From Brenneria rubrifaciens (GTDB lineage: Bacteria > Pseudomonadota > Gammaproteobacteria > Enterobacterales > Enterobacteriaceae), in the NCBI RefSeq assembly GCF_005484945.1, contig NZ_CP034035.1, positions 1,302,001 through 1,366,000 on the forward strand: 64,000 bases of DNA, given 5' to 3'. The translations under genes were made by a program, and so were the position numbers. The notes below the pieces were generated by a model, which ran no database searches, was not told the origin of the DNA, and saw only the letters and a program-made list of their open reading frames with translations. How positions within the stretch are numbered: the first letter of the stretch is position 1; each line of letters starts with the position of its first letter. Of the stretch, positions 2,693 through 58,678 are shown one piece after another.

Positions 2693-3676
2693 CTATTTAA
2701 ATTGATGAAGAAAACGAATGTCATTTTCAAAAAAAGGACGTAAATCATTAACACCATAACGTAGCATTGTCAGTCTCTCTACGCCCATACCAAATGCAAA
2801 TCCAGAGTATTCTTCAGGATCAATTTTGACAGCTTGTAAAACCTTTGGATGCACCATTCCACATCCCAATACTTCTAACCATTTACCATTTTTCCCCATT
2901 ACATCGACTTCAGCCCCAGGTTCTACAAATGGGAAGAATGAGGGACGAAATCTAATTTGTAATTCTTCTTCAAAAAAATTATAGAGGAATGAATGAAGTA
3001 TTCCCTTTAGTTGCGCAAAGCTGACACCATGATCAATAAATAGTCCTTCTATCTGATGGAACATTGGCGTGTGAGTCATATCATAATCGTTTCGGTATAC
3101 TCGTCCGGGGGCAATAAGTCTCAACGGAGGGGATTGAGTTTCCATTGTTCTTATTTGTACGCTTGATGTATGCGGACGTAACATAACCTCCGGATTAAAA
3201 TAAAATGTATCTTGAGAATCACGAGCGGGATGATATTTTGGCATATTTAAAGCGTCAAAGCAATGGAATCCATCTTCAATTTCTGGCCCTTGGGCCACAG
3301 TAAATCCCATTTCAATAAAAAAATCTTTAATTCGTTCAATTGTTCGGGTTACTGGATGTAGTCCTCCACTTTCTATTCCTCTTCCAGGGAGTGACACATC
3401 AATAATTTCATCTGTAATAAGAGCATCAATTTTTTTTGTTTCTAATTCCTTTCGTTTTTTTTCAAATATTTTCTGTAATTCTTTTTTTGCCTCATTTATT
3501 AGGCTACCAATCACAGGACGTTCTTCCGGGGGAAAAGATGGTAATTCTTTGGCTTTTGATGTAAACAATCCTTTTTTACCTAAGTACTTGATATGGAATT
3601 CTTTTAGCTCTTGTAACGAAGTGGCTTTAGAAATATCCTTCTTACCACAATTTACAAGTTGTTCTATAGTTGTCAC
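2693..3676 (-). CDS. pheS: Phenylalanyl-tRNA synthetase alpha subunit (accessory copy, likely self-resistance)
   Basis: I chose the GTG at 3676 because AGGAGG lies just upstream and it gives 327 residues, the length of E. coli PheS. The class II core is complete: motif 2 ([21 protein letters not shown]), the [22 protein letters not shown] stretch in two parts, and [18 protein letters not shown] near the C-terminus. It charges tRNA-Phe together with PheT, but no pheT is present here, so it must pair with the chromosomal PheT. The segment reading QTSG in E. coli as I recall it is HTSS here, near the substrate pocket. It lies at the end of a biosynthetic gene run, so self-resistance to a PheRS inhibitor is my inference. 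Base composition is AT-rich like its neighbours. Confidence 0.92.
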
Positions 3677-3771
3677 ATTCCCTCCTATCTTTATGTTTTT
3701 AATTTGTTGTTTTTTCAATATTTTGATAAAATCAATACTCTTTTGTTACGCTTTATAGATAGATAAAGGTA

Positions 3772-3840
3772 CTACCAAAAATGTCTACTTTTCCAGTATT
3801 TTTTGATCTTTGGCGCAAATTGGTATGATTGTTTCTTCAT
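3772..3840 (-). CDS. Possible 22-residue peptide upstream of pheS
   Basis: An ATG (3840) opens a 22-codon frame ending TAG at 3772. The peptide starts MKKQSYQFAP and ends KSRHFW, rich in Lys and aromatic residues. It lies in the only large gap (3677-4058) of the operon, about 95 nt before pheS. No good ribosome site is visible. It could be a peptide precursor for the radical SAM enzymes, a leader peptide controlling pheS, or chance. The rest of the gap shows nothing recognisable. Confidence 0.22.
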   Translation of the reverse strand: MKKQSYQFAPKIKKYWKSRHFW

Positions 3841-4058
3841 TTTTATGCACTTAATAATTTATGATTTTCGAACTGAACACATCTTTAATGAGATACAGAT
3901 AAAACCAGTGACCTTGGTCATTGTTTCATGCACACAACAGTTCAACGCTATCTGTTCTGATATCTGTGTCAGTCGTCCTCATCAGTTTCTCCGTAATAGT
4001 TCAGTGATCTACTATTTTGAAAAGTTATTTAATTATATAAACTAAAAATGTTTTATTG

Positions 4059-4553
4059 TTAACTATCATTACGGGATTCCCAGAAATCAATTAATTCTTC
4101 TGTAGAACATTTTTTTTCAAGACTTACAATCTTAATATTACTCCCTAGCTGGCTGGCAAATCCTGAAGAAGGGATACTATACTTCAAATATCCTCTTTTT
4201 TTTCCTGTAGTTACACTCATTCCATAGTATATATATTCAATACCAGCTAATTGAGCAACTGTCATGCAAATTGGACACGGTTCGCAAGTTGATATTAGTA
4301 TCGCCCCTTTTGGGAATTGGTTAACGTCTAATTTTCTTAAAGCAGTATAAATGGCTACGACTTCTGCATGATCAGCGGGATTATTATTTCTCATGGCGAG
4401 ATCGTACGTGCAAGTAATTATTTCTTTATCAACAATCACACAGGCACCAAAAGGATTTTCTCCTTTTTTAATACCTTCAAGAGCTTTTAGTTTACACTTA
4501 TTAAGTGCGCTAATAACAAATGAAATGTTATTGTTTCTATTTATTTCTTGCAT
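4059..4553 (-). CDS. Cytidine/guanine deaminase-family zinc enzyme
   Basis: 164 residues with both zinc signatures of the family: HAEVVAI (residues 62-68; His ligand and proton-shuttle Glu) and PCPIC (92-96; two Cys ligands). The sequence around them resembles guanine deaminase and tRNA adenosine deaminase more than free cytidine deaminases. The reaction would be hydrolytic deamination of a nucleobase or a related ring. Its ATG lies inside the end of the upstream methyltransferase gene (16-bp overlap), so the two are probably translationally coupled and act in one pathway. The substrate is unknown; a nucleobase-like part of a natural product is plausible. Confidence 0.85.
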   Translation of the reverse strand: MQEINRNNNISFVISALNKCKLKALEGIKKGENPFGACVIVDKEIITCTYDLAMRNNNPADHAEVVAIYTALRKLDVNQFPKGAILISTCEPCPICMTVAQLAGIEYIYYGMSVTTGKKRGYLKYSIPSSGFASQLGSNIKIVSLEKKCSTEELIDFWESRNDS

Positions 4554-5232
4554 GTATCACCCATACACTTGGAATTTTGAAAGCTAATTCAAACTTATCT
4601 TTGCTGGAAATGTCAGGATCATTACGCCATTGTTCGTAATTATGGTGTTTTTCATCAATGAATCCTTCTTGAATATCTACGATTTTCAAATTGAGTTGAT
4701 TACAGCAATGTATCCAACTGCTTATATCATGTATAAAGTGTTCTAACTTAATATATGTTTTATTCATTATAAATCCCCTAGTGAATCCACATGAAGCACG
4801 AATTGGGTGAAAATCACTAATAATGATTTCTCCATCTTTTTTAACAACTCTTTTGGCCTCAGATAAAACTTTAAATAAACTATTTACATGGCCGATAGCA
4901 AGAGATGATACTAAAATATCAAAGGAGCTATCAGCTAGAGGAATATTCAAAATGTTACCATGAATTACTTTCAACTTGGAATGTTTGTTTATTTTTTTAC
5001 ATTTTTCAATCATCGAATTAGAATAATCAAAAGCAAGTATTTTTTTTGCACCATATTCAATACATAGTTTTGAAATACGACCAGCGCCGCAAGCGGCATC
5101 TATAATTGAACGATTTAAACAACATGTTTGTAGTTTACGTTTTAAAATTATATGTTCTGATTCCATTAAAGGGTTAAATGGCTGATTGCTATATAGAGAA
5201 GACCACGTGTCATATTTTTCAATATTATTCAT
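4537..5232 (-). CDS. SAM-dependent class I methyltransferase
   Basis: 231 residues. The Rossmann-type SAM-binding motif I is clear (IIDAACGAGRISKL, about residues 43-56), with an acidic end of strand 2 (ILAFDYS) and motif IV-like FDILVSSLAIGHV; it belongs to the Methyltransf_11/25 type. It overlaps the aldo-keto reductase gene by 8 bp and the deaminase gene by 17 bp, so it is a tightly coupled operon member. It probably methylates the small molecule made by the cluster; acceptor atom unknown. Confidence 0.85.
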   Translation of the reverse strand: MNNIEKYDTWSSLYSNQPFNPLMESEHIILKRKLQTCCLNRSIIDAACGAGRISKLCIEYGAKKILAFDYSNSMIEKCKKINKHSKLKVIHGNILNIPLADSSFDILVSSLAIGHVNSLFKVLSEAKRVVKKDGEIIISDFHPIRASCGFTRGFIMNKTYIKLEHFIHDISSWIHCCNQLNLKIVDIQEGFIDEKHHNYEQWRNDPDISSKDKFELAFKIPSVWVIHARNK

Positions 5233-6082
5233 TTAATAAAATCTCCAATAAATATTCGGCCTGTTTTATATTGGATGCTCCAATGATAATATAATCAAGA
5301 TCGGCCATTACTGACTGGATAGCAAGTTTCTCAATCGGTATATTGATTGCTTGCGCTAAATTGTAAAGTTTTTTTGTTTTTTTTATAAAATCATCTTCTA
5401 TTTTTATGCCAAGGCGATTGAATCTATATCTATCATTAGTTGGACAATGAATATATTTACCTGTAAGTAATCCTCCGCCTAAAATCGAATAACCATAAAA
5501 GTGAATTCTTTTCCTGATGACTAAGTCTAACATATCCCAAGTGTAATTTCGTTCCAAAAAAGAGCATTTATACTGCACTGATGTAAAACGTTCTGTACCT
5601 AGTTCTATAGCTTGTGCTAGTTGATATCCAGTGAAATTACTTACGCCATATTCAGCTATCATTTGATGATCGCAAAGCCATTCTAGCGCAGATATTGATT
5701 CTGCAATATTAACTGAAGAATCAAACCCATGTAATAAGAATAAATTTATTCTGTCAACTTTAAGGTTTTTTAAAGACATCATACATGAGTTAATTATGTT
5801 TCTATATGATAGGTCGATTGATTTATTACCATTAATTGACTTACTAACTTTTGAACAGATATAAACATTACTATATGATTTAAGTGCATTGCCTAACATA
5901 TGCTCAGAAGCTCCATCTGAATATCCATAGGCAGTGTCAAACCTTCTTATTCCAGCGTCATAAAAGAGACGAACTAATTCGATAGAATTATTAGTTTGAT
6001 TAGAACCAATTCTGCTGAAAATTCCCTTATTACCAAAGGTCATAGTTCCAAAGCATAGATTTTTTGCGGAAATATTTACCAT
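5225..6082 (-). CDS. Aldo-keto reductase
   Basis: 285 residues. The AKR catalytic set is visible: Asp49 and Tyr54 in FDTAYGYSDG, Lys78 in YICSKVS, His118 in NLFLLHGFD. The C-terminal region has an IIGASN motif typical of NADP(H) binding in this fold. It would reduce a carbonyl or oxidise an alcohol using a nicotinamide cofactor. It lies 5 bp after the upstream methyltransferase gene and overlaps the next one, fitting a single biosynthetic transcript. Confidence 0.88.
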   Translation of the reverse strand: MVNISAKNLCFGTMTFGNKGIFSRIGSNQTNNSIELVRLFYDAGIRRFDTAYGYSDGASEHMLGNALKSYSNVYICSKVSKSINGNKSIDLSYRNIINSCMMSLKNLKVDRINLFLLHGFDSSVNIAESISALEWLCDHQMIAEYGVSNFTGYQLAQAIELGTERFTSVQYKCSFLERNYTWDMLDLVIRKRIHFYGYSILGGGLLTGKYIHCPTNDRYRFNRLGIKIEDDFIKKTKKLYNLAQAINIPIEKLAIQSVMADLDYIIIGASNIKQAEYLLEILLNE

Positions 6083-6087
6083 GAAAT

Positions 6088-7032
6088 TCAGTAGCCTATT
6101 AGTAGATGATGTTTTGGTAGCATTGGCATAATTTCTTCAAACCATTCTACCTGTTCTAGATTATCCTTTATTTCATTGAAATAAAGGATATTGTTCGTCT
6201 CTCCAAATTCCTCTTGAAATCCGACCAAAAAATATTTGAATAGATGTAAATGGTCACGTGTGATTTTCCTTATATATAATGGACACTCACTCAAAGACCA
6301 TGTTGAGATAAAAAGATTTTTTTTATAACCCGATATGGTGTTTAAAACTGATTCCCATTTGTCTGGATCATGAAATAATAAAACTTTATTTAATCTATGG
6401 CTATTTAAAAAATACTGTTGAATAGCACTCATGACCTCTAAATCGAATATATGATATGAGCCAGTAAACCCTATTTCATGAATTGTTTTACACATATTTC
6501 CATATCCACCGCCAAATTCGAATATATTGTCAATCTCATTAATTTTGAGATTGCTTTTATCTAAAAATTTCACTAGGCAGTAGCTATGATGCACTATCGC
6601 CCCCGTTAGTTTTATATTTCCTAGAAAAGGAAGTGGGTTGCCTACCTTCGGATAGGTTATATTGTCCTTTATTTCTTTCCATAATTTATTATTCTTTAAA
6701 TATTTATATTCTTTATATAAAAAAGATGAATTTTCTTCACCCATGGTTTCTTTGATGCACTCCCATTGTAAAAAATTATCAATCCCTTTTTCTTTAATAT
6801 TGGAAATTATTTTTCTGGTAATCACTGACCATTGGTTAAAGGATTTATACTCGGTATCAGATATAGGATCGGTTATTTTTATTAACTCAGTATTTAGTTT
6901 GTTTACATTCTCATGTAAAGGTGAGTGATTTCTACTATAACACACAAGCCATATCAGTCTTGCCAAGTAGGCTTTCATTATGATTTTATATTTACTTTCA
7001 AAATAAGTGTCATCTATCATGTAATTGTTCAC
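6088..7032 (-). CDS. Putative sugar O-methyltransferase-like protein
   Basis: 314 residues from a GTG start placed after a strong AAGGAGG. The SAM-binding glycine motif is FEFGGGYGNM (171-180), with IFDLE at the end of the next strand. The overall look matches the putative sugar O-methyltransferase family seen in polysaccharide and natural-product loci. The N-terminal 120 residues are helical and not recognised. It lies 11 bp after the third radical SAM gene. O-methylation of a sugar-like or cyclitol group is a guess from family only. Confidence 0.68.
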   Translation of the reverse strand: MNNYMIDDTYFESKYKIIMKAYLARLIWLVCYSRNHSPLHENVNKLNTELIKITDPISDTEYKSFNQWSVITRKIISNIKEKGIDNFLQWECIKETMGEENSSFLYKEYKYLKNNKLWKEIKDNITYPKVGNPLPFLGNIKLTGAIVHHSYCLVKFLDKSNLKINEIDNIFEFGGGYGNMCKTIHEIGFTGSYHIFDLEVMSAIQQYFLNSHRLNKVLLFHDPDKWESVLNTISGYKKNLFISTWSLSECPLYIRKITRDHLHLFKYFLVGFQEEFGETNNILYFNEIKDNLEQVEWFEEIMPMLPKHHLLIGY

Positions 7033-7043
7033 AATTTTCCTCC

Positions 7044-7949
7044 TTATGAGGTAAAGCCGCAGCAGACAAAATCAAATGTATGATTACAGCAATTTATATT
7101 TTTTCCCCACATCGTGGCACAATTAATTACATCTCCGTTATAATTTATGAAAATTATTTTTTCATGCATGTCACATTTTTTATAAATTTTATTTTCTTTT
7201 TTATTAATTACTTTTAAAATTGTTTCAAGGGAATCATTTGAATTTCTAATTTTATTTTTATACCTTTCATTTTGCTTTAGTTCTAATAGTTTTTGAATTA
7301 TAATGCTATCTTTAGTTTGTAAGATTAATTCGGTAGGAATATTACCTGTTTGTACTATGGGTTGAAAACGTATCTGAGAGACACCATGGTTTAACCAGTC
7401 ATCAATGATCTTGTGAAAATTTTCAACATGTGTGGTGAGTAAAGAATGAAGAATAACCTTTAATTCAACTTTAAAACCATATTCTTTAGCTGCTTTTTCA
7501 ATAAAAGCATAGGGCATTTTACATTGTCTTAATGTAGTTTGATGTTCTTCTAATAGTTCTGAAGAAACATGAAAATTTAGATTTATTTTCTCATTATACA
7601 GTGATGCTAAAATTTCAGATGCTTTATGATGTACGCCATTTGTATGGATGGATATAAATTTACCATTTTTTTTCAGATCTAATGCCAGTGTGATAATGTT
7701 TTTTGCGGCTAGTGGTTCTCCACCGGATAACATTACTTCGATGATATCATCATTTAAAAGCAAACTTATATTTTTTAATTTTTCGTTTTTATTGCTAAAT
7801 TTTGATAGTTTATCATACCAGTTTTCTTCCCCAAGAGGTCGGCAATAAATACAATGTAAATTACATCGATTAGTAATCGAAATGATGGCGAGTTTATTTT
7901 TTTTTAAAAAAACTCTGCTTAACCGATCTTCATTTGAATAAGTATCCAT
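7044..7949 (-). CDS. Radical SAM enzyme (third in operon)
   Basis: 301 residues. The [4Fe-4S] motif CNLHCIYC (Cys29, 33, 36) and the SAM-binding GGEP (76-79) are intact. The C-terminal 60 residues hold six more Cys (one, then one, then two CC pairs), suggesting an auxiliary cluster of SPASM or twitch type. The radical reaction cannot be told from sequence. The ATG follows the previous stop by 3 bp behind GGAGG. Such enzymes need low oxygen, which fits the FNR-type promoter of the operon. Confidence 0.88.
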   Translation of the reverse strand: MDTYSNEDRLSRVFLKKNKLAIISITNRCNLHCIYCRPLGEENWYDKLSKFSNKNEKLKNISLLLNDDIIEVMLSGGEPLAAKNIITLALDLKKNGKFISIHTNGVHHKASEILASLYNEKINLNFHVSSELLEEHQTTLRQCKMPYAFIEKAAKEYGFKVELKVILHSLLTTHVENFHKIIDDWLNHGVSQIRFQPIVQTGNIPTELILQTKDSIIIQKLLELKQNERYKNKIRNSNDSLETILKVINKKENKIYKKCDMHEKIIFINYNGDVINCATMWGKNINCCNHTFDFVCCGFTS

Positions 7950-7952
7950 GAC

Positions 7953-8960
7953 TCATCCTCCCATATACCCAATATTTCCTTTACATCCTATCGACATGAA
8001 CTCCCAGTCATACGGGCACCAAAAGTTTCTCTTTTTATTTTCACTAATTGGAAGTTTTCTTATTACTGGACATAATTCGCTCTTTTCTATAACTAAGTTC
8101 TCTCTCCTTTCAATTATTTCTTCTAGTGAATCACTGATAATGTTACCTAGAAGTAAACTATTATTATTTTTTTGCTCTGAAATGTGTTCAGCCATTAACA
8201 GACAACAAAAATAGACATTACCATCAGCCCGAATGTCGATACTATGCGTCGATGCTTTTGCACATAGCTTATAATTTTTCTTTAGTGGATGATCGAGATA
8301 ACTATTTTCCCATACAAGACTGAAGGTTGGATTATTTAAAATCAACCAATTTTTAACTCTTTGTTTTAATATTCCCCATATTTTTTGATTGACCATTTTA
8401 TATTTAGAATGTTTTGCCTGGCCAATCTCAGTTAAGCTATATATAGAAACGTTATCCACCTTATACTTATTAATAAAATCAAGGATTTTTTCAATATGAC
8501 TATAGTTATCGCGATGAATGACTATGTTTATATAGACATTTACAGGACTATTTTCTAGAGATTTTAATAAATAAAGAGTGTTAGTAAAGGTTTTTGGTTT
8601 TAATTGATCATGAATCATTATCTCGGTAGAGCTTATATCTACAGAAATACGCTTGACACCTAAAGATATAGATCTATAGATTTTGTCTATCCTTGCTGAA
8701 GCATTCGTTGTTATGCCAATATCCAGCTTTTTTTTGTTTAAAAAATAAATTAAATCATAAATTTTTTTATATAAAAAAGGCTCTCCACCAAATATGTTTA
8801 CATTGCATCGTGGGGATATATATGACGAATTCTTGGCAAAAAAATTTATCCAATCTGCAGGTGATAACTCTGGGATAGTAAGCCGATTTGACAGAAAAAG
8901 GCAATGTGAACAGCATCTATTGCACCTGTTGGTTAAATGTATTTGTACTGAACTGATCAT
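7953..8960 (-). CDS. Radical SAM/SPASM enzyme (second in operon)
   Basis: 335 residues. The cluster motif starts very early: Cys13, 17, 20 in CNRCCSHC; the GGEP motif is at 58-61. The C-terminal third has SPASM-like cysteines (LCAKAS, a CC pair after DGNVYF, ELCP, WCPYDW, GCKG). SPASM enzymes modify peptides (for example sactionine or Lys-Trp links) or sugars and cyclitols (for example BtrN-like dehydrogenases). It is 15 bp downstream of the first radical SAM gene. Substrate unknown. Confidence 0.88.
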   Translation of the reverse strand: MISSVQIHLTNRCNRCCSHCLFLSNRLTIPELSPADWINFFAKNSSYISPRCNVNIFGGEPFLYKKIYDLIYFLNKKKLDIGITTNASARIDKIYRSISLGVKRISVDISSTEIMIHDQLKPKTFTNTLYLLKSLENSPVNVYINIVIHRDNYSHIEKILDFINKYKVDNVSIYSLTEIGQAKHSKYKMVNQKIWGILKQRVKNWLILNNPTFSLVWENSYLDHPLKKNYKLCAKASTHSIDIRADGNVYFCCLLMAEHISEQKNNNSLLLGNIISDSLEEIIERRENLVIEKSELCPVIRKLPISENKKRNFWCPYDWEFMSIGCKGNIGYMGG

Positions 8961-8975
8961 ATCTTTATTCCAACA

Positions 8976-10001
8976 TTATAATGTTGCCATTGGTATTCTT
9001 ATCTGCTCATTAACATATTTTTTATACTTATTACTTCTAATGATACAGTAATGACAATCATACTTTTCAAAGTATATATCTCTCAGATTTCTTGCTTCTT
9101 TTAATAAACTATTTAAACTGTGATCCCTTATATTTCCGATTCGATATTTTGTATCAAGAGCGTGTGTATCTACAAGAACTTCACCATCATGAGTAACAGC
9201 AAAGCCATAATAAAGATAGCAACATGCGTCCCCATTAATTTGGGGTACATAAGTTCTCACCATTGCTTTTTTTACACTATTACAAGCATCAATACATGAT
9301 TGATATTCTTCATAGATCTCTGGATTTTCATTGGCAACACCAATTTGAGCTATATGTTCACAATCAAAATATATATCATCACCGCACAACTCAATTATTT
9401 TAGGTATATTCATATAATTTTTTGATGTTACAGTCATATGAATGCAAAGCCTTTTTATAATGTTTCCATTTATTTTTTTTATATCTTGTCGATATATTTT
9501 GCGAGCATATTCTATATTTTTTATAACTTTGTTTAGATTTGCTGAACCTCTATAAAAGTTTTTATATTCTTCGCTATTTAATGTATCTAGACTTATGGCA
9601 ATGCTAACATTATTTTCATAAAAAAAGTCAACAATTTTTCTGTTTAGCAATAATCCATTTGTAGCAATAAGAGTAATGATATTTTTCTCACTTATATGTT
9701 TAATTATCTCTCTGTAATTAACTTCCTTGACCATTTTATCTATAAATAAAAGAGGCTCGCCCTCTCCTAAAATACAGACACACTGTATACCCTTTTCCTC
9801 AGCTGCGTCTATTAAATATTTAACTTCTTTTGTGCTCAAAAATTTTTCTGGATTCTTCTTAGCTGCTGAAGTAAAACACTTTTCACAATCATAATTACAA
9901 ACAGGTGGGACGTTTATCATTAAAAAGTCTAATTCTCGCTCCCCCAATCTTGTAATATTTTCCATATTAAAAAAGTCGGGCATTCCTTTTAACATATCCA
10001 T
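8976..10001 (-). CDS. Radical SAM enzyme with SPASM/twitch-like tail (first gene of operon)
   Basis: 341 residues from an ATG behind GAGGAGGGG. Cluster motif CNYDCEKC (Cys35, 39, 42); the SAM motif is the variant GEGEP (79-83). The C-terminal region has a CC pair in GDACCYLYYGF, a THDGEV turn and CHYC (316-319), consistent with an auxiliary iron-sulfur site. As first gene it fixes the transcription start of the operon, which runs leftwards to pheS. Closest by feel to SPASM/twitch dehydrogenases and peptide-modifying enzymes; not assigned further. Confidence 0.88.
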   Translation of the reverse strand: MDMLKGMPDFFNMENITRLGERELDFLMINVPPVCNYDCEKCFTSAAKKNPEKFLSTKEVKYLIDAAEEKGIQCVCILGEGEPLLFIDKMVKEVNYREIIKHISEKNIITLIATNGLLLNRKIVDFFYENNVSIAISLDTLNSEEYKNFYRGSANLNKVIKNIEYARKIYRQDIKKINGNIIKRLCIHMTVTSKNYMNIPKIIELCGDDIYFDCEHIAQIGVANENPEIYEEYQSCIDACNSVKKAMVRTYVPQINGDACCYLYYGFAVTHDGEVLVDTHALDTKYRIGNIRDHSLNSLLKEARNLRDIYFEKYDCHYCIIRSNKYKKYVNEQIRIPMATL

Positions 10002-10069: not shown

Positions 10070-10173
10070 GACCATAGTTTTGTTATGGTCAATTTTTTCC
10101 GTTCATTGATTTGATGTAAATCAATAAATATTGATAAATTTTAATTAATCCACTAATATTTGATGTGTGTCAA
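10070..10173 (-). promoter_or_regulatory. FNR-type promoter region of the radical SAM operon
   Basis: A perfect FNR-type palindrome TTGAT-GTAA-ATCAA lies at 10111-10124 and a one-mismatch copy TTGAT-GTGT-GTCAA at 10160-10173. On the minus strand CATAAC (10087-10082) can serve as -10 box; a start near 10075 would put the perfect box at about -42, the class II activator position. An inverted repeat GACCATA-N7-TATGGTC (10070-10090) overlaps the -10 and may be an operator. The rest of 10002-10290 is AT-rich with no gene seen. Confidence 0.55.
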
Positions 10174-10797: not shown

Positions 10798-11502
10798 TTA
10801 CGATGCTTTTTTCAGATCGCTGGCATACCGATAAGGTAAAATATACCCGTCGAGATTCGCATCCAGATAATCCGCCCACCACTACATCATCTTGATCCGC
10901 TCTTCCAGATATTCAGCCTTGTGAATATAGGCAGCACGAACGCTGTTTCTTTCCTGATGGCTCATTTGTTTTTCAATCGCTTCGTTCGTCCATCATCCCG
11001 ACTCACTCAGCGCCGCACACGCCATCGCTCGGAAGCCGTGGCCGCAGACGTCTTTTTGGGTATCGTAGCCCATCACGCGCAGAGCCTTGTTAACGGTATT
11101 GTCGCTTATGCACTTATCCTGACCGTATTCGCCGGGGAAAATAAATGCCAGATGGCCCGAGAGCGTTTCAATCTGCTTTAGGATGGTAATAGCCTGATTG
11201 GATAGTGGAACAATTTGCTGAGTTTTCATTTTTGTGCCACGGTGAGAAAAACGCACGTTTTCGATCGGTTCCCGCGTTTCCGGGATTATCCATAATTTCT
11301 GCTGCCAGTCGATTTCACACCAGCGGGCAAAGCGCAGTTCGCTGGAGTGCACGAAAAACAGCAGCGACAGCTTAAGGGCATATTGGGTCAGCAACCTGCC
11401 GGAGTAACTGTTTGTCCGGGATAACAATTCAGGCAGCTTTTTAAGCGGCAGGGCAGGGTAATGATTGGTTTCCGGTGGCGTAAATTCACCGTCCAGATCC
11501 AG
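10798..11502 (-). pseudogene. P4-type integrase, C-terminal part (separated by IS21, two stops)
   Basis: Continuation of the integrase started at 14207. It carries the catalytic region (HSSELRFARW with the first Arg; GHGFRAM with the His-x-x-Arg box). After SESG the Trp codon is TGA (10993-10995), and further on another Trp codon is TAG (10882-10884). Past these stops the frame still reads MSHQERNSVRAAYIHKA with the catalytic Tyr, down to TAA at 10798. The reading across the stops matches the intact integrase at 57172-58440. So the gene is broken three times: IS21 insertion plus two nonsense changes. Confidence 0.85.
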
Positions 11503-11559
11503 TGTCAACGCCAAGATAGTTGGCCGTTTTTCGCCATTTTTAATGTCCGCTATTGGTCA

Positions 11560-13544
<1,985 letters not shown>

Positions 13545-13645
13545 GCTGGTGTCCTTTCTGGTGTGAGAACCTCAAGGAAACAACATGTTGGGTGGAGCGG
13601 ACAATCCAAATGGTGAATTACCGTCTTATATCACTGGCGCTGACA

Positions 13646-14207
13646 CCAGCGCCGGGTTCGATTTAATTAACTGCTTTTTCACCGCATAGCGCATGATCTC
13701 CGTTACGTAGTTTTTCAGCCGTGCGGTGATTTCCAGAAAGCCTTTACTCTCCACCTTACGCAATGTGAGTAACAGATCCGCTGTCGTGATCTGATCGATA
13801 AGGTTGTCCCCGACATCCGGGAAAACATACATTTCCAGTCTGCGCTGGATGGTTTTTGCGTAATGCGCAGACCAGCGCCGGTGATCGGCGTGCCAGTTCA
13901 TGGCGATCTGGCGAAATGTCTGCCCGTTTTTCTTTTTCTGCTGCGCGAGCTTCTTATCAGCGGCAGGATCGGCCCCTTCACGCACTTTAGCACGAGCGGC
14001 GTCGCGTAGCTGACGTGCCTTAAACAGGGAAACACCCGGGTAGGGACCAAAGGCCAGCTTTTTCTCTTTGCCATAGATGCGGTACTTCATGTACCAAAGT
14101 TTTGAGCCGTTGGGTTTGATCAGCAGGTACAGTCCTGAACTGTCTGCCAGTTTGAAGGATTTATCGGAGGGTTTGATCTTGCGGATAGCGGTATCGGTTA
14201 ATGCCAT
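13646..14207 (-). pseudogene. P4-type integrase, N-terminal part (interrupted by IS21)
   Basis: Frame begins MALTDTAIRKIKPSDKSFK, the typical start of P4-like integrases (arm-binding DUF4102 domain), and runs through the core-binding domain to NPAL before the IS21 end. It lies just left of the att copy at 14373-14388, the position expected for the integrase of an element to its left inserted at the tRNA-Asn end. With the C-terminal part (10798-11502) it made a protein of about 420 residues. An upstream in-frame ATG at 14222 is possible but less like relatives. Confidence 0.88.
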
Positions 14208-14372
14208 AGCGGGGGGCTCCATTTTCTCAACGAACCGTGAGGCCCCCGATTAGGCCCCCAAAAACTATGGATATCAAGAAACCCGGTAGTCCTTCTCAGG
14301 ATAACCGGGTAAAGATAACTTATTGTTTTTCAAACGCATCAGGACTCACTGGGATGTCATGATACTAAAATC

Positions 14373-14388
14373 TGGCTCCTCTGACTGG
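14373..14388. other. Attachment site (copy of tRNA-Asn 3' end)
   Basis: TGGCTCCTCTGACTGG is identical to 58603-58618, the last 16 nt of the tRNA-Asn gene. It would be the far junction of the 44-kb element that ends at the tRNA, and at the same time the near junction of the left element, whose broken integrase starts 166 bp away. Confidence 0.8.
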
Positions 14389-17020: not shown

Positions 17021-17314
17021 CAGAATCTTGCATATGGCATGAGCTACAGTCGCGAGCAATTCATAGATTCAGGAGAGACGGCTGGACATGGCAACAGCGT
17101 CGTGATGTGCAGACCGCACGTATGCGAAGCGAGCAGGCCCTAAGCTGGAAGTCGGGCCGTAGGTGTCAGGGATTAGAGAATAGTGGACTTGGAGTAGTTC
17201 GATCCGAAAAGCGGAGATGCAAGGCTCTTCTTGGCCTATTATCTATTTATATGCATCTGCAACCTAAGAAATTTTTTCCTGTTCAGGAATCTCAAATATA
17301 AAAGGGATAGCGCC

Positions 17315-18328
17315 TTGTCTGATGTCAACTACGAAAAGCAAGCTCAGGACTATTACAGCAAGGCTCCCATCATTATTCTGGGGAGTGGAGCCTCAGCTGC
17401 ACATGGAATGTCTGGCATGTGGGGGCTTGCGCAGCATTTGATAAAGAATACTGATGTTTCAGGTCTGTCTGATGCTGAAATGGAGTCTTGGGGTCTGTTC
17501 TGTCAGATGCTGACAGACGGTGTGGATTTAGAGGCAGCTCTCCACCGAGTAGCAGTATCTGAAGTGCTGACGTGCAGAATCATAAATTCCACTTGGTCAC
17601 TTATAAATCATGAAGATTGCGGCATCTTCAAGAGTGGCTTGCAAAATAGCTCGATGTTTCCGTTGAGCCGCCTGCTTGAACATATGTTCAAAACAAGCCT
17701 GAAAAAAATAAATATCATCACTACAAATTATGATCGCTTGGCCGAGTACGCATGCGAGCAAAGCAGGATTCATCACTACACTGGTTTTACACACGGATTT
17801 TTCCGTCAACTGGCCGCACCCGATGAATTGACCTGTTCGCGCAGAGTGAATATCTGGAAAGTACATGGATCTCTAGACTGGTTCCAGTCCCCACTAGACG
17901 ACACTGTCGCAATTTCAGGTTCACAAGAAATACCTGAAAACTATAGTCCGCAGATTGTCACGCCTGGCACGCAAAAGTACCAAAAGACGCACCTTGAGCC
18001 ATTCCGCTCAATTATTAATAACGCAGACGTAGCCATCAACGAGGCAGGATCATATTTGTGCATTGGATATGGATTTAACGACGAACATATTCAACCAAAA
18101 CTTATGGCCAAATGTCAGCGACATGGAGCACCAGTCACCATCATTACATACGCGCTTTCCGAGTCAGCCAAAAGACTTATCCTTGGGGGAAAAGCACAGA
18201 ATTATTTAGCCATAGAGCGAGGAGCAACAGATGACCAGTCCATTGTCTACTCTTCTCTGTTCAGTTCTGCGATCTCTGTAGAGAAAAACATCTGGAGCCT
18301 TGAGGGCTACTTATCACTCATCATGTAG
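17315..18328 (+). CDS. SIR2-family NAD-consuming defence effector
   Basis: I place the start at TTG 17315, 7 nt after AAAGGGA, giving 337 residues; longer upstream frames have no ribosome site. SIR2 motifs in order: ILGSGASAAHG (near residue 20), ITTNYDRLAE (near 130), KVHGSLDWF (near 190) and GYGFNDEHI (near 250). Such proteins degrade NAD+ or ADP-ribosylate. It is 9 bp before a HerA ATPase gene, the known SIR2-HerA antiphage pair, in which the two proteins form a large complex. Part of the defence area of the element. Confidence 0.9.
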   Translation: MSDVNYEKQAQDYYSKAPIIILGSGASAAHGMSGMWGLAQHLIKNTDVSGLSDAEMESWGLFCQMLTDGVDLEAALHRVAVSEVLTCRIINSTWSLINHEDCGIFKSGLQNSSMFPLSRLLEHMFKTSLKKINIITTNYDRLAEYACEQSRIHHYTGFTHGFFRQLAAPDELTCSRRVNIWKVHGSLDWFQSPLDDTVAISGSQEIPENYSPQIVTPGTQKYQKTHLEPFRSIINNADVAINEAGSYLCIGYGFNDEHIQPKLMAKCQRHGAPVTIITYALSESAKRLILGGKAQNYLAIERGATDDQSIVYSSLFSSAISVEKNIWSLEGYLSLIM

Positions 18329-18337
18329 AGAGGACTT

Positions 18338-20065
18338 ATGCCAATATTCAACTTTAGGGATGAAGATGCACTTGGAAAGGTTGCCTCAGTTGACACCGCG
18401 AATGTCGTTGTTGATGTCGAGAATGTTTCTCATCTAAAGAGACTGCAGGTTAATCATCTAGCTGTACTTCAGAGTAGCAGGCCAGGGCAGCACCTTATTG
18501 GTCTTATTACACAAGTGACCAGAAAGCGAGGTATCGAGAATCTTTCTGATGATGGGATCGTAGACCAAAAATCAGAGTTGAATCTGTGTCGCATTGCTTT
18601 AATTGGAACCATGCTAGATCGTGATGGCTCCAAAGAAAATGTTTTCCGTCGAACACTCGAAAGTGTTCCTGAAATAGATGCGAACTGCTTCGCTCTCGAA
18701 GGCGAGAACCTCACGGGATTTATGCGTACTCTCTCCAGTGTTTCAGCTGATGGCAACGCATTGACGCTTGGCAAATACACTCTGGATGAGAATGCAGTAG
18801 CCTACCTTAATGGAAATAAATTCTTCCAACGTCATGCTTTTATTGGAGGAAGTACAGGGTCTGGAAAGTCTTGGACAACCGCCAAAATTATTGAGCAGAT
18901 GTCAGGGCTCATTACTGCTAATGCTATTGTCTTCGACCTTCACGGAGAATACGCGCCACTGACAGGACCTGGAATTCAACATTTCAAAGTTGCAGGGCCT
19001 GCAGATGTTGAAGCCCAAAGCACTATTTCTGACGGTGTGCTTTATCTTCCTTATTGGCTGCTTTCTTATGAGGCCCTAGTTTCCATGTTTGTGGATCGCA
19101 GCGACCAAAATGCCCCGAACCAAGCCATGATTATGGCTCGCGAGATCAATCAGGCCAAAAGAAAGTACCTTGAAGACAATGGGCAACAGGACTTGCTAAA
19201 GCATTTTACTGTAGATAGCCCTGTGCCATTTGATCTTAACTTCCTGATGTCGCGACTAAATGAAATAAACATCGAAATGGTTCCTGGTGCGCGTGGCGAC
19301 AAGCAAGGCGACTTCTTCGGAAAGCTCGCACGCATGATTTCTCGGCTTGAGAACAAAATTTCCGATCGACGCCTCGGATTTATGTTCAATGGCGGTGGAG
19401 ATATTCTTGATTTCACTTGGCTTGATAAATTTGCCAGTGCCGCTCTTGGTAGCACAGCGGAGAACGGAAAAGCAGGCATCAAGATTATCAACTTCTCCGA
19501 GGTTCCCTCGGACGTTTTGCCCCTAATAGTATCCCTCGTTGCACGAGTTACGTTCTCAGTACAACAGTGGACACCATCAGAGCTTCGCCACCCCATTGCT
19601 CTTCTTTGTGATGAAGCGCACCTCTATATGCCGCAGCGCAATATGGCAGATTCTGCCGACGATATTTCATTGGATATATTCGAGCGAATTGCCAAAGAGG
19701 GGCGAAAATATGGCGTCAGTTTGGTTGTAATCAGTCAGCGCCCATCCGAAGTGAACAAAACACTGCTTAGCCAGTGCAGTAACTTTGTATCTATGCGTCT
19801 GACCAATGCTGAAGATCAAGGCGTTATCAAGCGCCTACTTCCCGACAGCCTCGGAGGCTTCAGCGACATCCTTCCTACGCTCGATACTGGCGAGGCTTTG
19901 GTTGTTGGCGATGCCAGCTTATTGCCAAGCCGTATCAGAATCGACGAACCACAGAATAAGCCGAATAGCGGAACAGTGAATTTTTGGGATGAATGGCAGA
20001 TCCCAGTCGAAGAAAATCGGCTAATGATTGCTGTTGACAACTGGCGAAAGCAAAATATTCAGTAA
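18338..20065 (+). CDS. HerA-like hexameric ATPase (partner of SIR2)
   Basis: 575 residues. N-terminal HAS-barrel-like region, Walker A GGSTGSGKS (170-178), Walker B IALLCDEAHLYMP (about 425) and an arginine-rich ISQRPSEVNK segment typical of HerA/FtsK-type motors. Reads directly on from the SIR2 gene, so the two are co-translated. In the known SIR2-HerA system the ATPase hexamer holds SIR2 and both are needed for phage defence. Confidence 0.92.
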   Translation: MPIFNFRDEDALGKVASVDTANVVVDVENVSHLKRLQVNHLAVLQSSRPGQHLIGLITQVTRKRGIENLSDDGIVDQKSELNLCRIALIGTMLDRDGSKENVFRRTLESVPEIDANCFALEGENLTGFMRTLSSVSADGNALTLGKYTLDENAVAYLNGNKFFQRHAFIGGSTGSGKSWTTAKIIEQMSGLITANAIVFDLHGEYAPLTGPGIQHFKVAGPADVEAQSTISDGVLYLPYWLLSYEALVSMFVDRSDQNAPNQAMIMAREINQAKRKYLEDNGQQDLLKHFTVDSPVPFDLNFLMSRLNEINIEMVPGARGDKQGDFFGKLARMISRLENKISDRRLGFMFNGGGDILDFTWLDKFASAALGSTAENGKAGIKIINFSEVPSDVLPLIVSLVARVTFSVQQWTPSELRHPIALLCDEAHLYMPQRNMADSADDISLDIFERIAKEGRKYGVSLVVISQRPSEVNKTLLSQCSNFVSMRLTNAEDQGVIKRLLPDSLGGFSDILPTLDTGEALVVGDASLLPSRIRIDEPQNKPNSGTVNFWDEWQIPVEENRLMIAVDNWRKQNIQ

Positions 20066-20100
20066 TAACACTTTTATTAGAGTGGGTACTATTTGAAATG

Positions 20101-20155
20101 GGTTATTGCTTTCCGCCACGCGAAAAATAAATGCGAAGCAATAACCTTTTCATTT
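20101..20155 (+). terminator. Terminator after herA
   Basis: Perfect 11-bp arms GGTTATTGCTT (20101-20111) and AAGCAATAACC (20136-20146), followed by TTTTCATTTTATTTT. Separates SIR2-HerA from the next gene. Confidence 0.6.
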
Positions 20156-20216
20156 TATTTTTACAAGGGCTAATCGGTTTTTTGTGTACATATAGCGAGT
20201 TTTTTGGAGGAGAAGG

Positions 20217-21089
20217 ATGAGGGATGTATTCAAGGATCTCAACGATGAAGATTGGGAGAATTTTGCTCAAGATGTCCTTTTTCATCTTGGCTACACAATA
20301 GCTTTAGGGCCATCTGTGGGACGCGATGATGGAGTGGATCTTATTGTAGAGAAAGGTGGACAGAGGTTTATTGTAAGCTGCAAACATCATCAGAAGGCTA
20401 TTGGTGTTTCGCAGGAGAAAGATATACGAGATCGCATGGAGCTTAATTTATGCTCTGGGTTCATCGCGTTCTACTCATCATCAGTAACTTCAGGCCTGAA
20501 GAAAAAGTTTAACAAGCTTCGCGAGCTTGATTTTAAAGTGGTTGAGTACTACAGGATAAACATCCTAGACATAATTCCCACTATGATGGGATTTGTTCTG
20601 GAAAAGTACTTCAAACAAGTGCATGATCTATACCACCATGTCAATACAGGTATGGTTTACAAGCCGCTACCTTGCGTAATGGAGTGTGGATGTAATGATA
20701 TTTTATCAAAGGAGGCTCTTCCTTGGTCAATGGTTACCCTTGTAAAAAAGGGTAATAAATTATGCTTTGAGTATGGCTGTAAAGAATGCCTCGGGAATTA
20801 TCCTGAACATAATATTGGTTTCTTCGAACCCGAAATAATAGGTAGATTCGATTTTGTAGAAATATATTGGATGGAGTTGTCGCAGATTCGTTTTTTTGAG
20901 GAATACTTCAAGTGGCGAGACTTAATTGACTTATGCCTCGAATATCTCGAAGTTGTCCCTGACGACGATTTCTACAAGAATTTCTCCATATTCAATATGG
21001 CACTGATGCAAATTATGGTTCCACAAGGATGGGGAGTGTGGTTACCTGCTGAATATGAAGTCACTACGATTAGCTTGATGTCAATTTGA
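20217..21089 (+). CDS. Mrr-like restriction endonuclease-fold protein
   Basis: 290 residues behind a strong GGAGGAGAAGG. The N-terminal 110 residues are an Mrr-type PD-(D/E)XK domain: NFAQDVLFHLGY, then GRDDGVDLIV (catalytic Asp41) and FIVSCKHHQK (Cys55-Lys56 as the xxK). The C-terminal part has paired cysteines (MECGCND, YGCKECLG) that may bind zinc. Mrr-type enzymes cut modified DNA. It follows SIR2-HerA but has its own leader after a terminator, so likely a separate defence gene. Confidence 0.82.
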   Translation: MRDVFKDLNDEDWENFAQDVLFHLGYTIALGPSVGRDDGVDLIVEKGGQRFIVSCKHHQKAIGVSQEKDIRDRMELNLCSGFIAFYSSSVTSGLKKKFNKLRELDFKVVEYYRINILDIIPTMMGFVLEKYFKQVHDLYHHVNTGMVYKPLPCVMECGCNDILSKEALPWSMVTLVKKGNKLCFEYGCKECLGNYPEHNIGFFEPEIIGRFDFVEIYWMELSQIRFFEEYFKWRDLIDLCLEYLEVVPDDDFYKNFSIFNMALMQIMVPQGWGVWLPAEYEVTTISLMSI

Positions 21090-21715: not shown

Positions 21716-23581
21716 GTGTGTCCTGAAGGTAGATCTTCCGGATGAAGTTTTACCATGCTGTATTTGTGATGAGGGTAGGCCCCTCGGGTTCGCCGATCAG
21801 GCGGTGATCCCAAACCACCCTGGGCTGCATACGTAAAGAGCGTGTGTGGTGAGCGCCATGGGAAAAAGGCGGAGCAAGACTCCGTTAGGTAAGAATGATT
21901 GAGACGAACGCAAGTGAACCACTGAAGACATGTCGATAATTGCAACCGATATCAGAACCAGGGTCTTGTCAACGCTCTGGGATAAGTCAGACCGATACCT
22001 GAAGTGCGGGTCTGGCGGTATCCGGCACGGAGGTGGCGTGACGATCATTCAGGCACAGATACGGAACAGGAGAATCTGTCATTCCGATGCCAAGGGAGCG
22101 ATTCAAGCAGCGAACCTGCGGAGGATCTGAGTACCGATGCGGAATACAGAGACGGAGTCATGCGTAGTAGTGAGGAAAGTACTGTAATGGTGCCGGAGCG
22201 AAGGCATGACCTTATCCAGCGGAAAAGTGAGGACAACTGTGCATCAGGATGATCCTTGCCGGACGGCAAAACCCTTTGATATACCCAAACGAACCCTGTG
22301 GGAAGCGTGGAAATGTGTGGCGGCCAACAAAGGCGCGCCGGGCGTTGACAAGGAAAGCATCACCGCCTTCGGGGAACGGCTGGGGCCCAATTTGTATAAG
22401 TTATGGAACCGGATGAGTTCGGGGAGTTATATGCCATCCCCGGTTCGTCAGGTATTGATCCCCAAAGGAGCCGGCGAGTTCAGGCCTCTGGGGATCCCTA
22501 CCGTAGGCGATCGGGTGGCGCAAATGACGGTCAAGTTGTTAGTGGAAGCGAGGTTGGAACAGCTTTTCCATCCCAGCTCATTTGGATATCGTCCACAACG
22601 AAGTGCTCACCACGCAGTGGAGCAGGCACGACGGCATTGTTGGCGATACGACTGGGTGCTGGATATGGATATGAAAGCGTTCTTTGATACGCTCGACCAT
22701 GATTTGATGATGCGCGCCGTTGAAAAGCATATCCCCGAAAGCTGGATACGACTGTATATCAGACGGTGGCTGGCGTGCCCGGTGAGAGTGGCTGACGGGC
22801 AATGTCAGTCACGCGATCGTGGAACGCCACAAGGTGGGGTAATCTCACCGTTATTAGCCAACCTCTACTTGCATTATGCGTTTGATAGCTGGATGAATAA
22901 ACATTTTCCACAGGTGCCGTTCGAGCGTTATGCCGATGATATTGTCTGCCATTGCCGCACCGAATCTGAAGGAAAAGCGTTGCTCGAAGCCTTACAGGCG
23001 AGATTGACCGCCTGTCGGTTGCAACTTCATCCAGAAAAGACGCGGCTGGTGTATTGCAAAGATGGACGTCGTACCGGCCATGCCGAGCATACCCGATTTG
23101 ATTTTCTGGGATTCAGCTTCCATGCCCGGACCGTACAGGATCGGCAGGGGAAGTTGTTTAGCGGATTCAACCCGGGAATCAGCAGGAAAGCGCTCAAACG
23201 GATGGGTGAAGTATTACGAGGTATGAAAATCGCCAGGGCAACCGGGATGGATCTAGGCCAATTGGCGAAACGGATCAATTCCCGGGTGCGAGGGTGGATA
23301 ACGTATTACGGAAAATTTTACCCAGAAATATTGTCCCGAGCCTTGATCAGAATAGATCTGCATCTGGGGCGATGGGCCCGTAACAAATACAAACGGTTGC
23401 GCGGACACAAACGACGTTCATGGAACTGGCTCAAACAGATAAGAGGACAGCATCCTAAATTGTTTGCGCACTGGGTATTTATCTATACAAAGGCAGTTGG
23501 ATAAGAAGAGCCGTATGAATCGAGAGATTCACGTACGGTTCTGTGAGAGCCTGAGGGGGAGGTTCCCTTGGGCTACTCGAC
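21716..23581 (+). mobile_element. Group II intron, copy 2 (intact-looking)
   Basis: Starts GTGTG at 21716, ends CTACTCGAC at 23581; 1866 bp, nearly the same as copy 1. Domain V (23508-23541) is GAGCCGTATG...CGTACGGTTC with the AGC triad intact, as in well-studied group II introns. Domain VI and the reverse transcriptase are present. The 5' exon AGGATAGTTGTCA resembles that of copy 1 (AAGGTAGTTGGCA). It sits in the left end of an IS that itself interrupts an IS3 OrfB. Confidence 0.88.
22239..23504 (+). CDS. ltrA: Group II intron reverse transcriptase/maturase, copy 2
   Basis: 421 residues from the GTG at 22239, the position matching copy 1; the frame stays open upstream to 22206 but without similarity. 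YADD active site (FERYADDIVCH), RT blocks and the maturase region are complete, with no endonuclease domain. Only scattered amino-acid differences from copy 1 (for example RDRGTPQGGVISPL in place of RVRGTPQGGVISPI). As its RNA is intact, this is the copy most likely to be active. Confidence 0.92.
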   Translation: MHQDDPCRTAKPFDIPKRTLWEAWKCVAANKGAPGVDKESITAFGERLGPNLYKLWNRMSSGSYMPSPVRQVLIPKGAGEFRPLGIPTVGDRVAQMTVKLLVEARLEQLFHPSSFGYRPQRSAHHAVEQARRHCWRYDWVLDMDMKAFFDTLDHDLMMRAVEKHIPESWIRLYIRRWLACPVRVADGQCQSRDRGTPQGGVISPLLANLYLHYAFDSWMNKHFPQVPFERYADDIVCHCRTESEGKALLEALQARLTACRLQLHPEKTRLVYCKDGRRTGHAEHTRFDFLGFSFHARTVQDRQGKLFSGFNPGISRKALKRMGEVLRGMKIARATGMDLGQLAKRINSRVRGWITYYGKFYPEILSRALIRIDLHLGRWARNKYKRLRGHKRRSWNWLKQIRGQHPKLFAHWVFIYTKAVG

Positions 23582-24641: not shown

Positions 24642-25484
24642 TTAAATAAAAAGACTATTGATCATACTACACTGATGGCAACCATTAATGTCTGCGGCCC
24701 TCAAGAAATCTGTATGATTAATCAAAACTGCATTACTAACACCTGAAAACTGGAGCTGTGCATATATTCCTAAGATTGATTTTTTTTCATAGTATTGAGC
24801 TCTTCCATTGTAGTGTTCACCAGTGCTAGAACTTAAAAATTTCTTCGTGCTTTCCTCTCGTAGCTGATTAGCTTGCAGAAAGGTGACTATGTCTTGTCGT
24901 AATGATTGATTTTTATTATGGAAATAACCTAATAATTGGTCTTCAAGAGTTCCTAATTGGGTTTGAATATCATGAAAGATATACCCACCCCATTCACATC
25001 CACCGAACTCAACAATGTTGCCATTGTTAAGTGCAACAGCGTCTTCTAATCCAATTTCGGTTCTAATCTCGGTTATCCTTGCATCAATGCCATGGTTATC
25101 TGCATCAAAAAAATATAAAAATCTATATAAAATCTCTAAACTAAAATCATCTGTACCAGAAAGCTCTTTATACATGGTGATTAATTGATTTCTTTCACTG
25201 TTTCTACCATCACCGTTTAGGTTATGAATGAAAATTAAATTCCCATTTTTAAAAAAACATACTGATGGAAGCTTTGGTCCGTTAGGCTGAAAACCAAGTT
25301 TTTTATCAGGAATTCTTACTTGACTCAACTCCTTGGCAAAGCGTTTATCAAACGGAGGTGGTAGTTGACCAATCTTTAAATCTTGAAGAAGAAATCCATT
25401 GACTAAAAGAACTCTACTAAGAAAAGCGACGTCATGCTGCCCCTCACAAAAGGCAACTATAACTTTATTATAATATTCAGTCAC
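24642..25484 (-). CDS. TOPRIM-fold protein, partner of ParB-AAA ATPase (putative defence)
   Basis: Start GTG 25484, 4 nt after the upstream stop, with GAGG before it; an ATG at 25511 is an alternative. The N-terminus reads NKVIVAFCEGQHDVAFL, the first strand and Glu of a TOPRIM-type nuclease, and YFFDADNHGID (about residue 125 from this start) supplies the DxD. This is the set of metal-binding residues of OLD/DUF4435-type nucleases. It overlaps or abuts the ATPase gene, so the two act together. ATPase plus TOPRIM pairs (OLD, Gabija, PARIS) are defence systems; which type this is cannot be settled here. Confidence 0.72.
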   Translation of the reverse strand: MTEYYNKVIVAFCEGQHDVAFLSRVLLVNGFLLQDLKIGQLPPPFDKRFAKELSQVRIPDKKLGFQPNGPKLPSVCFFKNGNLIFIHNLNGDGRNSERNQLITMYKELSGTDDFSLEILYRFLYFFDADNHGIDARITEIRTEIGLEDAVALNNGNIVEFGGCEWGGYIFHDIQTQLGTLEDQLLGYFHNKNQSLRQDIVTFLQANQLREESTKKFLSSSTGEHYNGRAQYYEKKSILGIYAQLQFSGVSNAVLINHTDFLRAADINGCHQCSMINSLFI

Positions 25485-25488
25485 AATA

Positions 25489-27726: not shown

Positions 27727-27764
27727 ACGTCGCCTCAATGATGTGGGAACTACACAATCCAACT

Positions 27765-58602: not shown

Positions 58603-58678
58603 TGGCTCCTCTGACTGGACTCGAACCAGTGACATACGGATTAACAGTCCGCCGTTCTACCGACTGAACTACAGAGGA
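58603..58678 (-). tRNA. tRNA-Asn (GTT)
   Basis: Minus strand starts TCCTCTGTAGTTCAGTCGG; anticodon loop CTGTTAA gives GTT; ends GAGGAGCCA with encoded CCA. Its last 16 nt (58603-58618) equal the att copy at 14373-14388. Confidence 0.97.

Follow-up and report, generated by a model that had tools for sequence, protein, structure and literature searches.

In the albomycin cluster of Streptomyces, SerRS2/AbmK is a resistant spare seryl-tRNA synthetase that also supplies seryl-adenylate (PMC9032320) and that confers immunity in E. coli JM109 (PMC9032320, PMC12691670). A spare synthetase as a sign of self-resistance, which an earlier note on the DNA described here had invoked, is an established pattern (PMC9032320). 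This DNA is a stretch of 64,000 nucleotides from Brenneria rubrifaciens (contig NZ_CP034035.1, positions 1,302,001 to 1,366,000; the whole stretch is called the window). It contains a packed operon of seven genes, three of which encode radical S-adenosylmethionine (SAM) enzymes (A, B and C), followed by a spare pheS, the gene for the alpha subunit of phenylalanyl-tRNA synthetase (PheRS).

The albomycin cluster likewise has a divergent spare synthetase beside a radical SAM and methyl-transfer pathway (PMC9032320, PMC12691670). However, its amino acid and synthetase are different, whereas here the duplication concerns only a single subunit of an enzyme that has two. Albomycin also has the pyridoxal phosphate enzymes AbmH and AbmD, with none like them among the families found here, and its host is Streptomyces rather than a gammaproteobacterium. 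The two systems are likened by description and not by sequence. The 4′-thiothymidine cluster thmA-C of Photorhabdus, a member of Enterobacterales, is small, uses radical SAM chemistry for a nucleoside antibiotic and includes a gene for self-resistance, but it has three genes and its resistance is conferred by a nucleotide triphosphatase and not by a spare target (PMC12691670); this comparison, too, is one of descriptions. The literature searched, which left most subscription journals outside its scope, showed no self-resistance by a spare PheRS or by one subunit and no cluster of this kind, in agreement with the earlier note, which knew of no described cluster with this gene set. We know of no antibacterial natural product for which a spare PheRS is the described self-resistance. 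If the reading below holds, PheRS as the target and the single-subunit form would be new, while spare-synthetase self-resistance as such is already known.

Our results support the identification of the PheS in the radical SAM locus as an extra, foreign and complete alpha subunit, and they support the view that such extra copies are very rare. Together with the gene set, the foreign second pheS suggests an undescribed PheRS antibiotic with a self-protection gene. We tentatively favour a reading in which the product of the operon, as predicted from its gene families, would attack PheRS and the spare alpha subunit would protect its maker, and we hold this to be only a little less probable than its contrary.

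The spare PheS and its phenylalanine pocket

The start of the spare gene is more likely the GTG at 3676, which stands behind aggaggg, than the listed TTG at 3718, and the 327 residues read from this GTG equal the length of E. coli PheS (3pco). Against TIGR00468 the protein scored 360.5 bits (cut-off 237.45; the longer TTG form was scored). No partner pheT was found at the locus. The single pheT match in the 4.03-Mb, one-contig genome adjoins the housekeeping pheS, with which it forms a pair at C1:2026623-2029994. The earlier description of a full-length PheS without PheT is thus borne out. Like a housekeeping PheS, the spare is full-length, exceeds the curated cut-off and keeps the catalytic residues, but it differs in being an extra copy without pheT, in its identity of 64% with the host's PheS and in its changes at two residues of the phenylalanine (Phe) pocket. 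It is not a member of SrmL, the “PheS-related mystery ligase” that NCBIfam names separately as a PheS relative (NF051887; 150.1 bits, cut-off 300). A recent duplication of the host pheS is ruled out by the 64% identity, by the tree and by the GC content at third codon positions (GC3; 0.235 in the spare, 0.562 in the host gene).

Relatives of the spare PheS were drawn from the best 120 of 8000 scored matches. Among these the closest were P0072 (83%) and P0073 (72%, Salmonella enterica), and Aeromonas PheS (67-68%) was slightly nearer than the host's (64%). In a quick tree the spare, P0072 and P0073 formed one clade on a long stem (SH-like approximate likelihood ratio support, SH-aLRT, 100). The position of this clade among the housekeeping groups was not settled and P0073 was flagged as a long branch, while the PheS of the host grouped with that of E. 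coli.

Of 394 order genomes searched, 385 had a PheS match and one had two; for the class these numbers were 369, 338 and one, and for the phylum 36, 35 and one, the one being this genome each time. The three samples overlap, and second copies weaker than the cut-offs (1e-60, 1e-90 and 1e-40, respectively) would escape. A distant BLASTN search with pheS detected one place, and never more, in 5375 of 5426 E. coli genomes, at 60-80% identity (66.8-66.9% in the 20 rows listed). Two of these places were on plasmid-classed records, each as the sole place of its genome.

The three spares (our own, P0072 and P0073) were aligned with 67 other PheS from Pseudomonadota. These comprised 37 order-level or named rows (29 best-scoring order loci, five Aeromonas, the host, E. 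coli and P. aeruginosa), and the class and phylum searches contributed a further 30 loci; 63 of the 67 are distinct. Since many are near-identical Aeromonas sequences, the rows are not independent tests. At 80 core positions the 67 PheS were at least 98.5% identical, and 74 of these positions were kept in all three spares. Five were changed in all three (N139C, H155Q, T168P, T251V and S254G) and one in P0073 alone (D286N). Among the other PheS, N139, H155 and T168 were present in 67 of 67, T251 and S254 in 66 of 67. Position 172 was S in all three spares and G or P elsewhere.

The Phe pocket of the M. tuberculosis PheRS comprises Phe255, Phe257, Thr258, Ala305, Gln215, Glu217, Gly309, Arg312, Gln158, Arg201 and Ser177 (PMC12447630). 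In E. coli numbering, obtained from offsets of 3 (residue 140) and 7 (residue 215) and from residue spacing, these are, in the same order, 248, 250, 251, 294, 208, 210, 298, 301, 155, 195 and 171. H155 aligns with Gln158 (by offsets) and T251 with Thr258 (by spacing). With two of the eleven pocket residues changed in the spares (155 and 251) and nine kept, the pattern of changes fits an active enzyme whose pocket has been altered.

Under the reading that we favour, the seven-gene operon would produce a small molecule at low oxygen, probably from a nucleoside or an amino acid, and this product would inhibit PheRS at or near the Phe/Phe-adenylate site. The spare PheS would act as a self-resistance subunit by target duplication. 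It would join the host's only PheT in an (alpha-beta)2 enzyme, the remodelled Phe pocket of which would no longer bind the product. In the heterotetrameric PheRS catalysis resides in alpha and editing in beta (PMC7373986), and a resistant alpha could therefore take over by means of the host beta. As with AbmK in albomycin, a further role of the spare subunit could be to provide the pathway with activated Phe. That the operon and pheS share one function is an inference, and so are the kind of product, its target, the association with the host PheT and the protection. The stronger proposition, that the island holds the first natural product cluster targeting PheRS, protected by a subunit swap (alpha duplicated, host beta borrowed), is possible but in our opinion doubtful.

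The operon, its enzymes and its upstream region

All eight open reading frames (ORFs) were found on the minus strand of 2693..10001 (Table 1). As the earlier note had described, seven of them are packed: between 10001 and 4059 the successive gaps, in operon order, are 15, 3, 11, 5, -8 and -17 bases. The spare pheS lies directly downstream on the shared strand, its start 382 bases from the deaminase gene, and by comparison with the -17 to +15 bases within the operon it is the loosely attached gene of the set. GC content in the eight genes was 28-36% and GC3 0.205-0.295, while the host pheS region had a GC content of 0.51. Because the GC3 of the spare pheS falls within the range of the seven operon genes (0.205-0.295) and not near that of the host gene, we suggest an AT-rich history common to pheS and the operon. 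To judge from its gene families, the operon is probably biosynthetic.

The three radical SAM enzymes share a CxxxCxxC motif and exceeded the cut-off of PF04055 (65.5 bits in A). The SPASM domain PF13186 was detected in A (23.5 bits) and B (27.9 bits; cut-off 21.5) and not in C, the Cys-rich tail of which was recognised only by eye. Auxiliary cluster-like tails, which the earlier note had ascribed to all three enzymes, are thus recognised by Pfam in A and B and not in C. The nearest solved sequences were 5v1q (“Radical SAM”), which we take to be SuiB, and MoaA 2fb2 for A, and SkfB, MoaA and cytosylglucuronate decarboxylase for B; C had no solved relative at E<=1e-3. MoaA, cytosylglucuronate decarboxylase, viperin and the SPASM peptide maturases, which have the radical SAM core in common, are all among the nearest solved relatives of A or B, but A and B fell far under the curated cut-offs of the MoaA, viperin and maturase models compared. 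Curated identities were evaluated on the 25 best models per protein, of 41 to 46 matched, and none reached its cut-off. GTP 3′,8-cyclase MoaA (TIGR02666, cut-off 284.05 bits) scored 68.0 in A, 49.5 in B and 53.1 in C, and prokaryotic viperin (NF038283, cut-off 180 bits) scored 47.2, 47.2 and 30.1, respectively. Matches to viperin-type defence in PADLOC were partial only (best 61.4 bits, B). The families of radical SAM A (A1) and B (A3) had 28 and 26 members. In the tail of family A, Cys260 and Cys319 were invariant and Asp278 and His280 nearly so; if iron-binding, these residues would be an unusual set of auxiliary-cluster ligands.

Families for three of the other enzymes named in the earlier note, the aldo/keto reductase, the second methyltransferase and the zinc deaminase, were borne out by Pfam (PF00248, PF08241 and PF00383). 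The deaminase has HAE and PCxxC (PCPIC) motifs, and its nearest solved relatives are guanosine, deoxycytidine and guanine deaminases. A TadA identity was rejected (39.7 bits, cut-off 150), as were BioC and UbiE for the 231-residue methyltransferase, with models far below cut-off. The “O-methyltransferase-like” label of the 314-residue protein fared less well: there was a likeness to TIGR04371, but at 38.5 bits it was under the cut-off of 44, with no Pfam match and no credible solved relative (best E 0.36). The deaminase would fit a nucleoside-like product, as would the likeness that A and B bear to MoaA, cytosylglucuronate decarboxylase and viperin, but their likeness to peptide maturases is just as great.

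A perfect FNR box (consensus of PMC3688515) lies upstream of the operon; 28 of 20000 shuffles of the 299-base upstream stretch also gave one, the single-letter shuffle being a lax control. Induction in the absence of oxygen would be appropriate for a set of three radical SAM enzymes. The gap before pheS contains an 18-codon ORF (3982 to 3926) with a Shine-Dalgarno-like GGAG, a possible leader peptide, and a 22-codon ORF without such a site (by eye). No T-box or other Rfam regulator was detected before pheS at E<=0.1; the two Rfam matches obtained were part of a group II intron and, inside pheS, a chance similarity to a viral untranslated region.

Table 1. Features of the spare pheS locus and its surroundings (window coordinates; aa, amino acids).
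Feature	Position	Strand	Remarks
Spare pheS, 327 aa, complete, without pheT	2693..3676	-	TIGR00468
382-base gap	3677..4058	-	18-codon ORF, no credible Rfam regulator
Zinc nucleobase/nucleoside deaminase-like protein, 164 aa	4059..4553	-	PF00383 58.1 bits
Class I SAM methyltransferase, 231 aa	4537..5232	-	PF08241 74.4 bits
Aldo/keto reductase, 285 aa	5225..6082	-	PF00248 154.7 bits
Putative methyltransferase, 314 aa	6088..7032	-	match below cut-off to TIGR04371 (putative sugar O-methyltransferase)
Radical SAM C, 301 aa, core resembling MoaA, short tail rich in Cys	7044..7949	-	Pfam Radical_SAM 44.2 bits
Radical SAM B (SPASM domain), 335 aa	7953..8960	-	Pfam
Radical SAM A, 341 aa, first gene	8976..10001	-	CxxxCxxC at residue 35; SPASM-like tail
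Perfect FNR box TTGATnnnnATCAA	10111..10124	.	sole perfect one in the 64-kb window, 110 bases upstream of operon start
Second FNR-like box, one mismatch	10160..10173	.	upstream of operon
Group II intron domain RF00029	2487..2558	+	34.9 bits, gathering 40; downstream edge of cluster
Broken island integrase	10915..14222	-	split by IS21-like element 11560-13544; in-frame stop
15-base tRNA-Asn 3′-end repeat, island's right end	14373..14387	-	

Distribution of the genes and rival explanations

Relatives of radical SAM A were found in Salmonella enterica (80% identity), Vibrio mimicus (68%) and Aeromonas veronii (62%). The other 24 members of its family were 32-69% identical, including one from a Nealsonbacteria metagenome-assembled genome. 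For radical SAM B the identity was 58% to a Salmonella relative and 42% to one from V. mimicus. The Salmonella matches of A (P0002) and B (P0192) were both listed with a contig of 461,039 bases. Since matches of the two enzymes had equal-sized contigs in four cases besides our own genome (461,039, 2,684, 4,019 and 9,919 bases; 28 vs 26 members), A and B are likely paired elsewhere, contig size serving as a proxy. The pairing appears to include some metagenome contigs (P0002-P0028, P0192-P0216). None of the 120 best PheS matches (of 8000) was on a contig sized like these four.

Three archaeal relatives of radical SAM A (31-37% identity, genome contigs) were found at loci L011, L012 and L013, where stretches of 4.5, 10.8 and 19.3 kb gave no match to pheS. 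The archaeal gene was followed by one for an EgtD-like methyltransferase, detected by Pfam in L011 and L013 and by eye, as a piece at the contig end, in L012. A small SMR/EamA-like protein preceded it in L012 (Pfam) and L011 (by eye). Together these archaeal genes are possibly an undescribed mini-cluster.

Among closer genomes the cluster was restricted to its own: it was found in 1 of the 9 genomes of the genus, and the radical SAM A family in 1 of 394 order genomes, in each case our genome. The class sample gave 2 of 369, our own genome and a different protein (L015, 25.5% over 184 residues). Radical SAM A had no match in 226 genomes of the genus around G054, presumably Vibrio, in a search without a positive control. 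Radical SAM B matched 17 of 59 genomes of relatives, but all matches except our own were 21-33% identical over part of the protein and are therefore general radical SAM matches. In E. coli genomes the whole cluster had no megablast match, and radical SAM A to C had none by distant BLASTN. The latter method matched the stretch to 97 plasmid records, and among the 20 of these that were listed the best pheS match had 69.7% DNA identity over 9% of the query. A tblastn search of plasmids with radical SAM A recovered 12 records, all under 60% identity; three covered at least 80%, at 22-27% identity. In viral contigs there was no match for radical SAM A, B or the putative methyltransferase, and in phages B had one weak match (18.7%).

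Several observations weigh against a PheRS inhibitor with its own shield. In the records searched, pheS and the radical SAM genes were not seen together at any second locus, and the archaeal stretches show no pheS, so that the constant company of the two, a question raised by the earlier note, was not confirmed. P0072 is on a 15,909-base contig and P0073 on one of 376,267 bases, and neither size occurs among the listed A and B matches. Given its 382-base offset, pheS could be transcribed alone. The changed positions did not cluster significantly near the pocket by sequence distance (P 0.07 to 0.48 over six settings with the threshold at 100% or 98.5%; P 0.12 to 0.33 at 95%). One ordinary PheS of the sample, L064, has V251 and G254 together, and this pair therefore need not mean resistance. 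Seven FNR-like sites with at most one mismatch were found in the whole window, a number reached by 7 of 100 shuffles and thus attributable to chance. Finally, Pfam and the curated models recognised no transporter family among the eight genes, and no ligase family except PheS.

Some of these points would be expected if pheS and the operon were unrelated island neighbours, the operon product having no link to PheRS and PheS either guarding against a foreign inhibitor or toxic Phe analogue or being a passenger. The gap before pheS, the contig sizes of P0072 and P0073, the three archaeal loci, in which a relative of radical SAM A stands with an EgtD-like methyltransferase (Pfam on two) and the stretches show no pheS, and the unrelated cargo carried by the islands here all agree with this explanation. 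However, the GC3 of pheS is like that of the operon and unlike that of the host, pheS lies directly downstream on the same strand, and Salmonella enterica has relatives at comparable identity (A 80%, B 58%, PheS 72%). We consider this explanation unlikely, though it survives better than the other three.

Alternatively, the spare PheS could be biosynthetic and, with the host PheT, could give Phe-adenylate or Phe-tRNA to the pathway, protection being secondary or absent. It keeps its catalytic residues, and there are precedents in VlmL of valanimycin and AbmK of albomycin (PMC9032320). The host PheRS, however, already makes both Phe-adenylate and Phe-tRNA, no acceptor (an aminoacyl-tRNA-dependent or ATP-grasp ligase) was recognisable among the eight genes, and the changes on the Phe pocket would not be needed for supply alone. 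A purely biosynthetic role therefore seems quite improbable. Slightly less probable still is a role of the cluster in modifying tRNA-Phe or a nucleotide, for instance as a defence against phages, with the spare PheS charging the altered tRNA. Radical SAM, methyltransferase and deaminase families are known from tRNA modification and viperin, the deaminase and radical SAM families present here suit nucleotides, and the neighbouring islands hold defence-type genes, but the curated tRNA-modification and viperin models compared were all under cut-off and the viperin-like matches in PADLOC were partial. That the operon makes a ribosomally synthesised, radical-SAM-modified peptide, with a precursor among the 18- and 22-codon ORFs of the gap, is very improbable: although A and B are similar to peptide maturases of the SPASM type (SkfB; 5v1q; 5wgg, presumably CteB), no maturase model among those compared reached cut-off, no leader-like precursor, protease or exporter was recognised, and a deaminase and an aldo/keto reductase are unusual in such pathways.

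The island and its implications

The cluster lies between repeats of 15-17 bases of the tRNA-Asn 3′ end at window positions -5008 and 14373, in an element of approximately 19 kb. The 17-base copy is at C1:1296992, 5.0 kb left of the window, and the tRNA-Asn itself is at 58603. The IS21 type of the insertion in the island integrase was recognised by eye. A second element of 44 kb, which encodes an integrase of its own (57172-58440) as well as a conjugation coupling protein, extends up to the tRNA-Asn. The islands are in tandem from -5008 to 58678, each repeat or tRNA adjoining an integrase gene or remnant, and integrases at C1:1295681, 1359292 and 2355984 have equal Pfam scores.

A reverse-transcriptase-like ORF (941-2206) was recognised by eye, and the group II intron to which the RF00029 match belongs (941-2558) ends just downstream of pheS. 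A second group II intron reverse transcriptase was detected by Pfam at 22206-23504. At 17231-21089 a SIR2-like protein, a HerA-type ATPase and an Mrr-type nuclease stand in a row, a defence module by its look. An AT-rich pair at 24642-27762 corresponds to the PADLOC candidate defence proteins PDC-M38A (1099.8 bits) and PDC-M38B (422.9 bits). In the cluster's own island (L026, 7482-9200), a dual-OB protein (PADLOC PDC-M45A), a DUF488 protein and a SLOG/DUF4326 protein likely form another defence-type module.

The bacterial enzyme is strongly different from the human one, and PheRS is a drug target for this reason (PMC7948948). With eight small genes and an enteric-type host, a direct test in a laboratory strain of E. 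coli K-12 is feasible. Under the stronger proposition above, a mobile island with FNR control would carry the inhibitor and the protection against it together through bacteria of gut and water. If the favoured reading is true, this locus would exemplify resistance through the exchange of a single subunit in a synthetase that has two.

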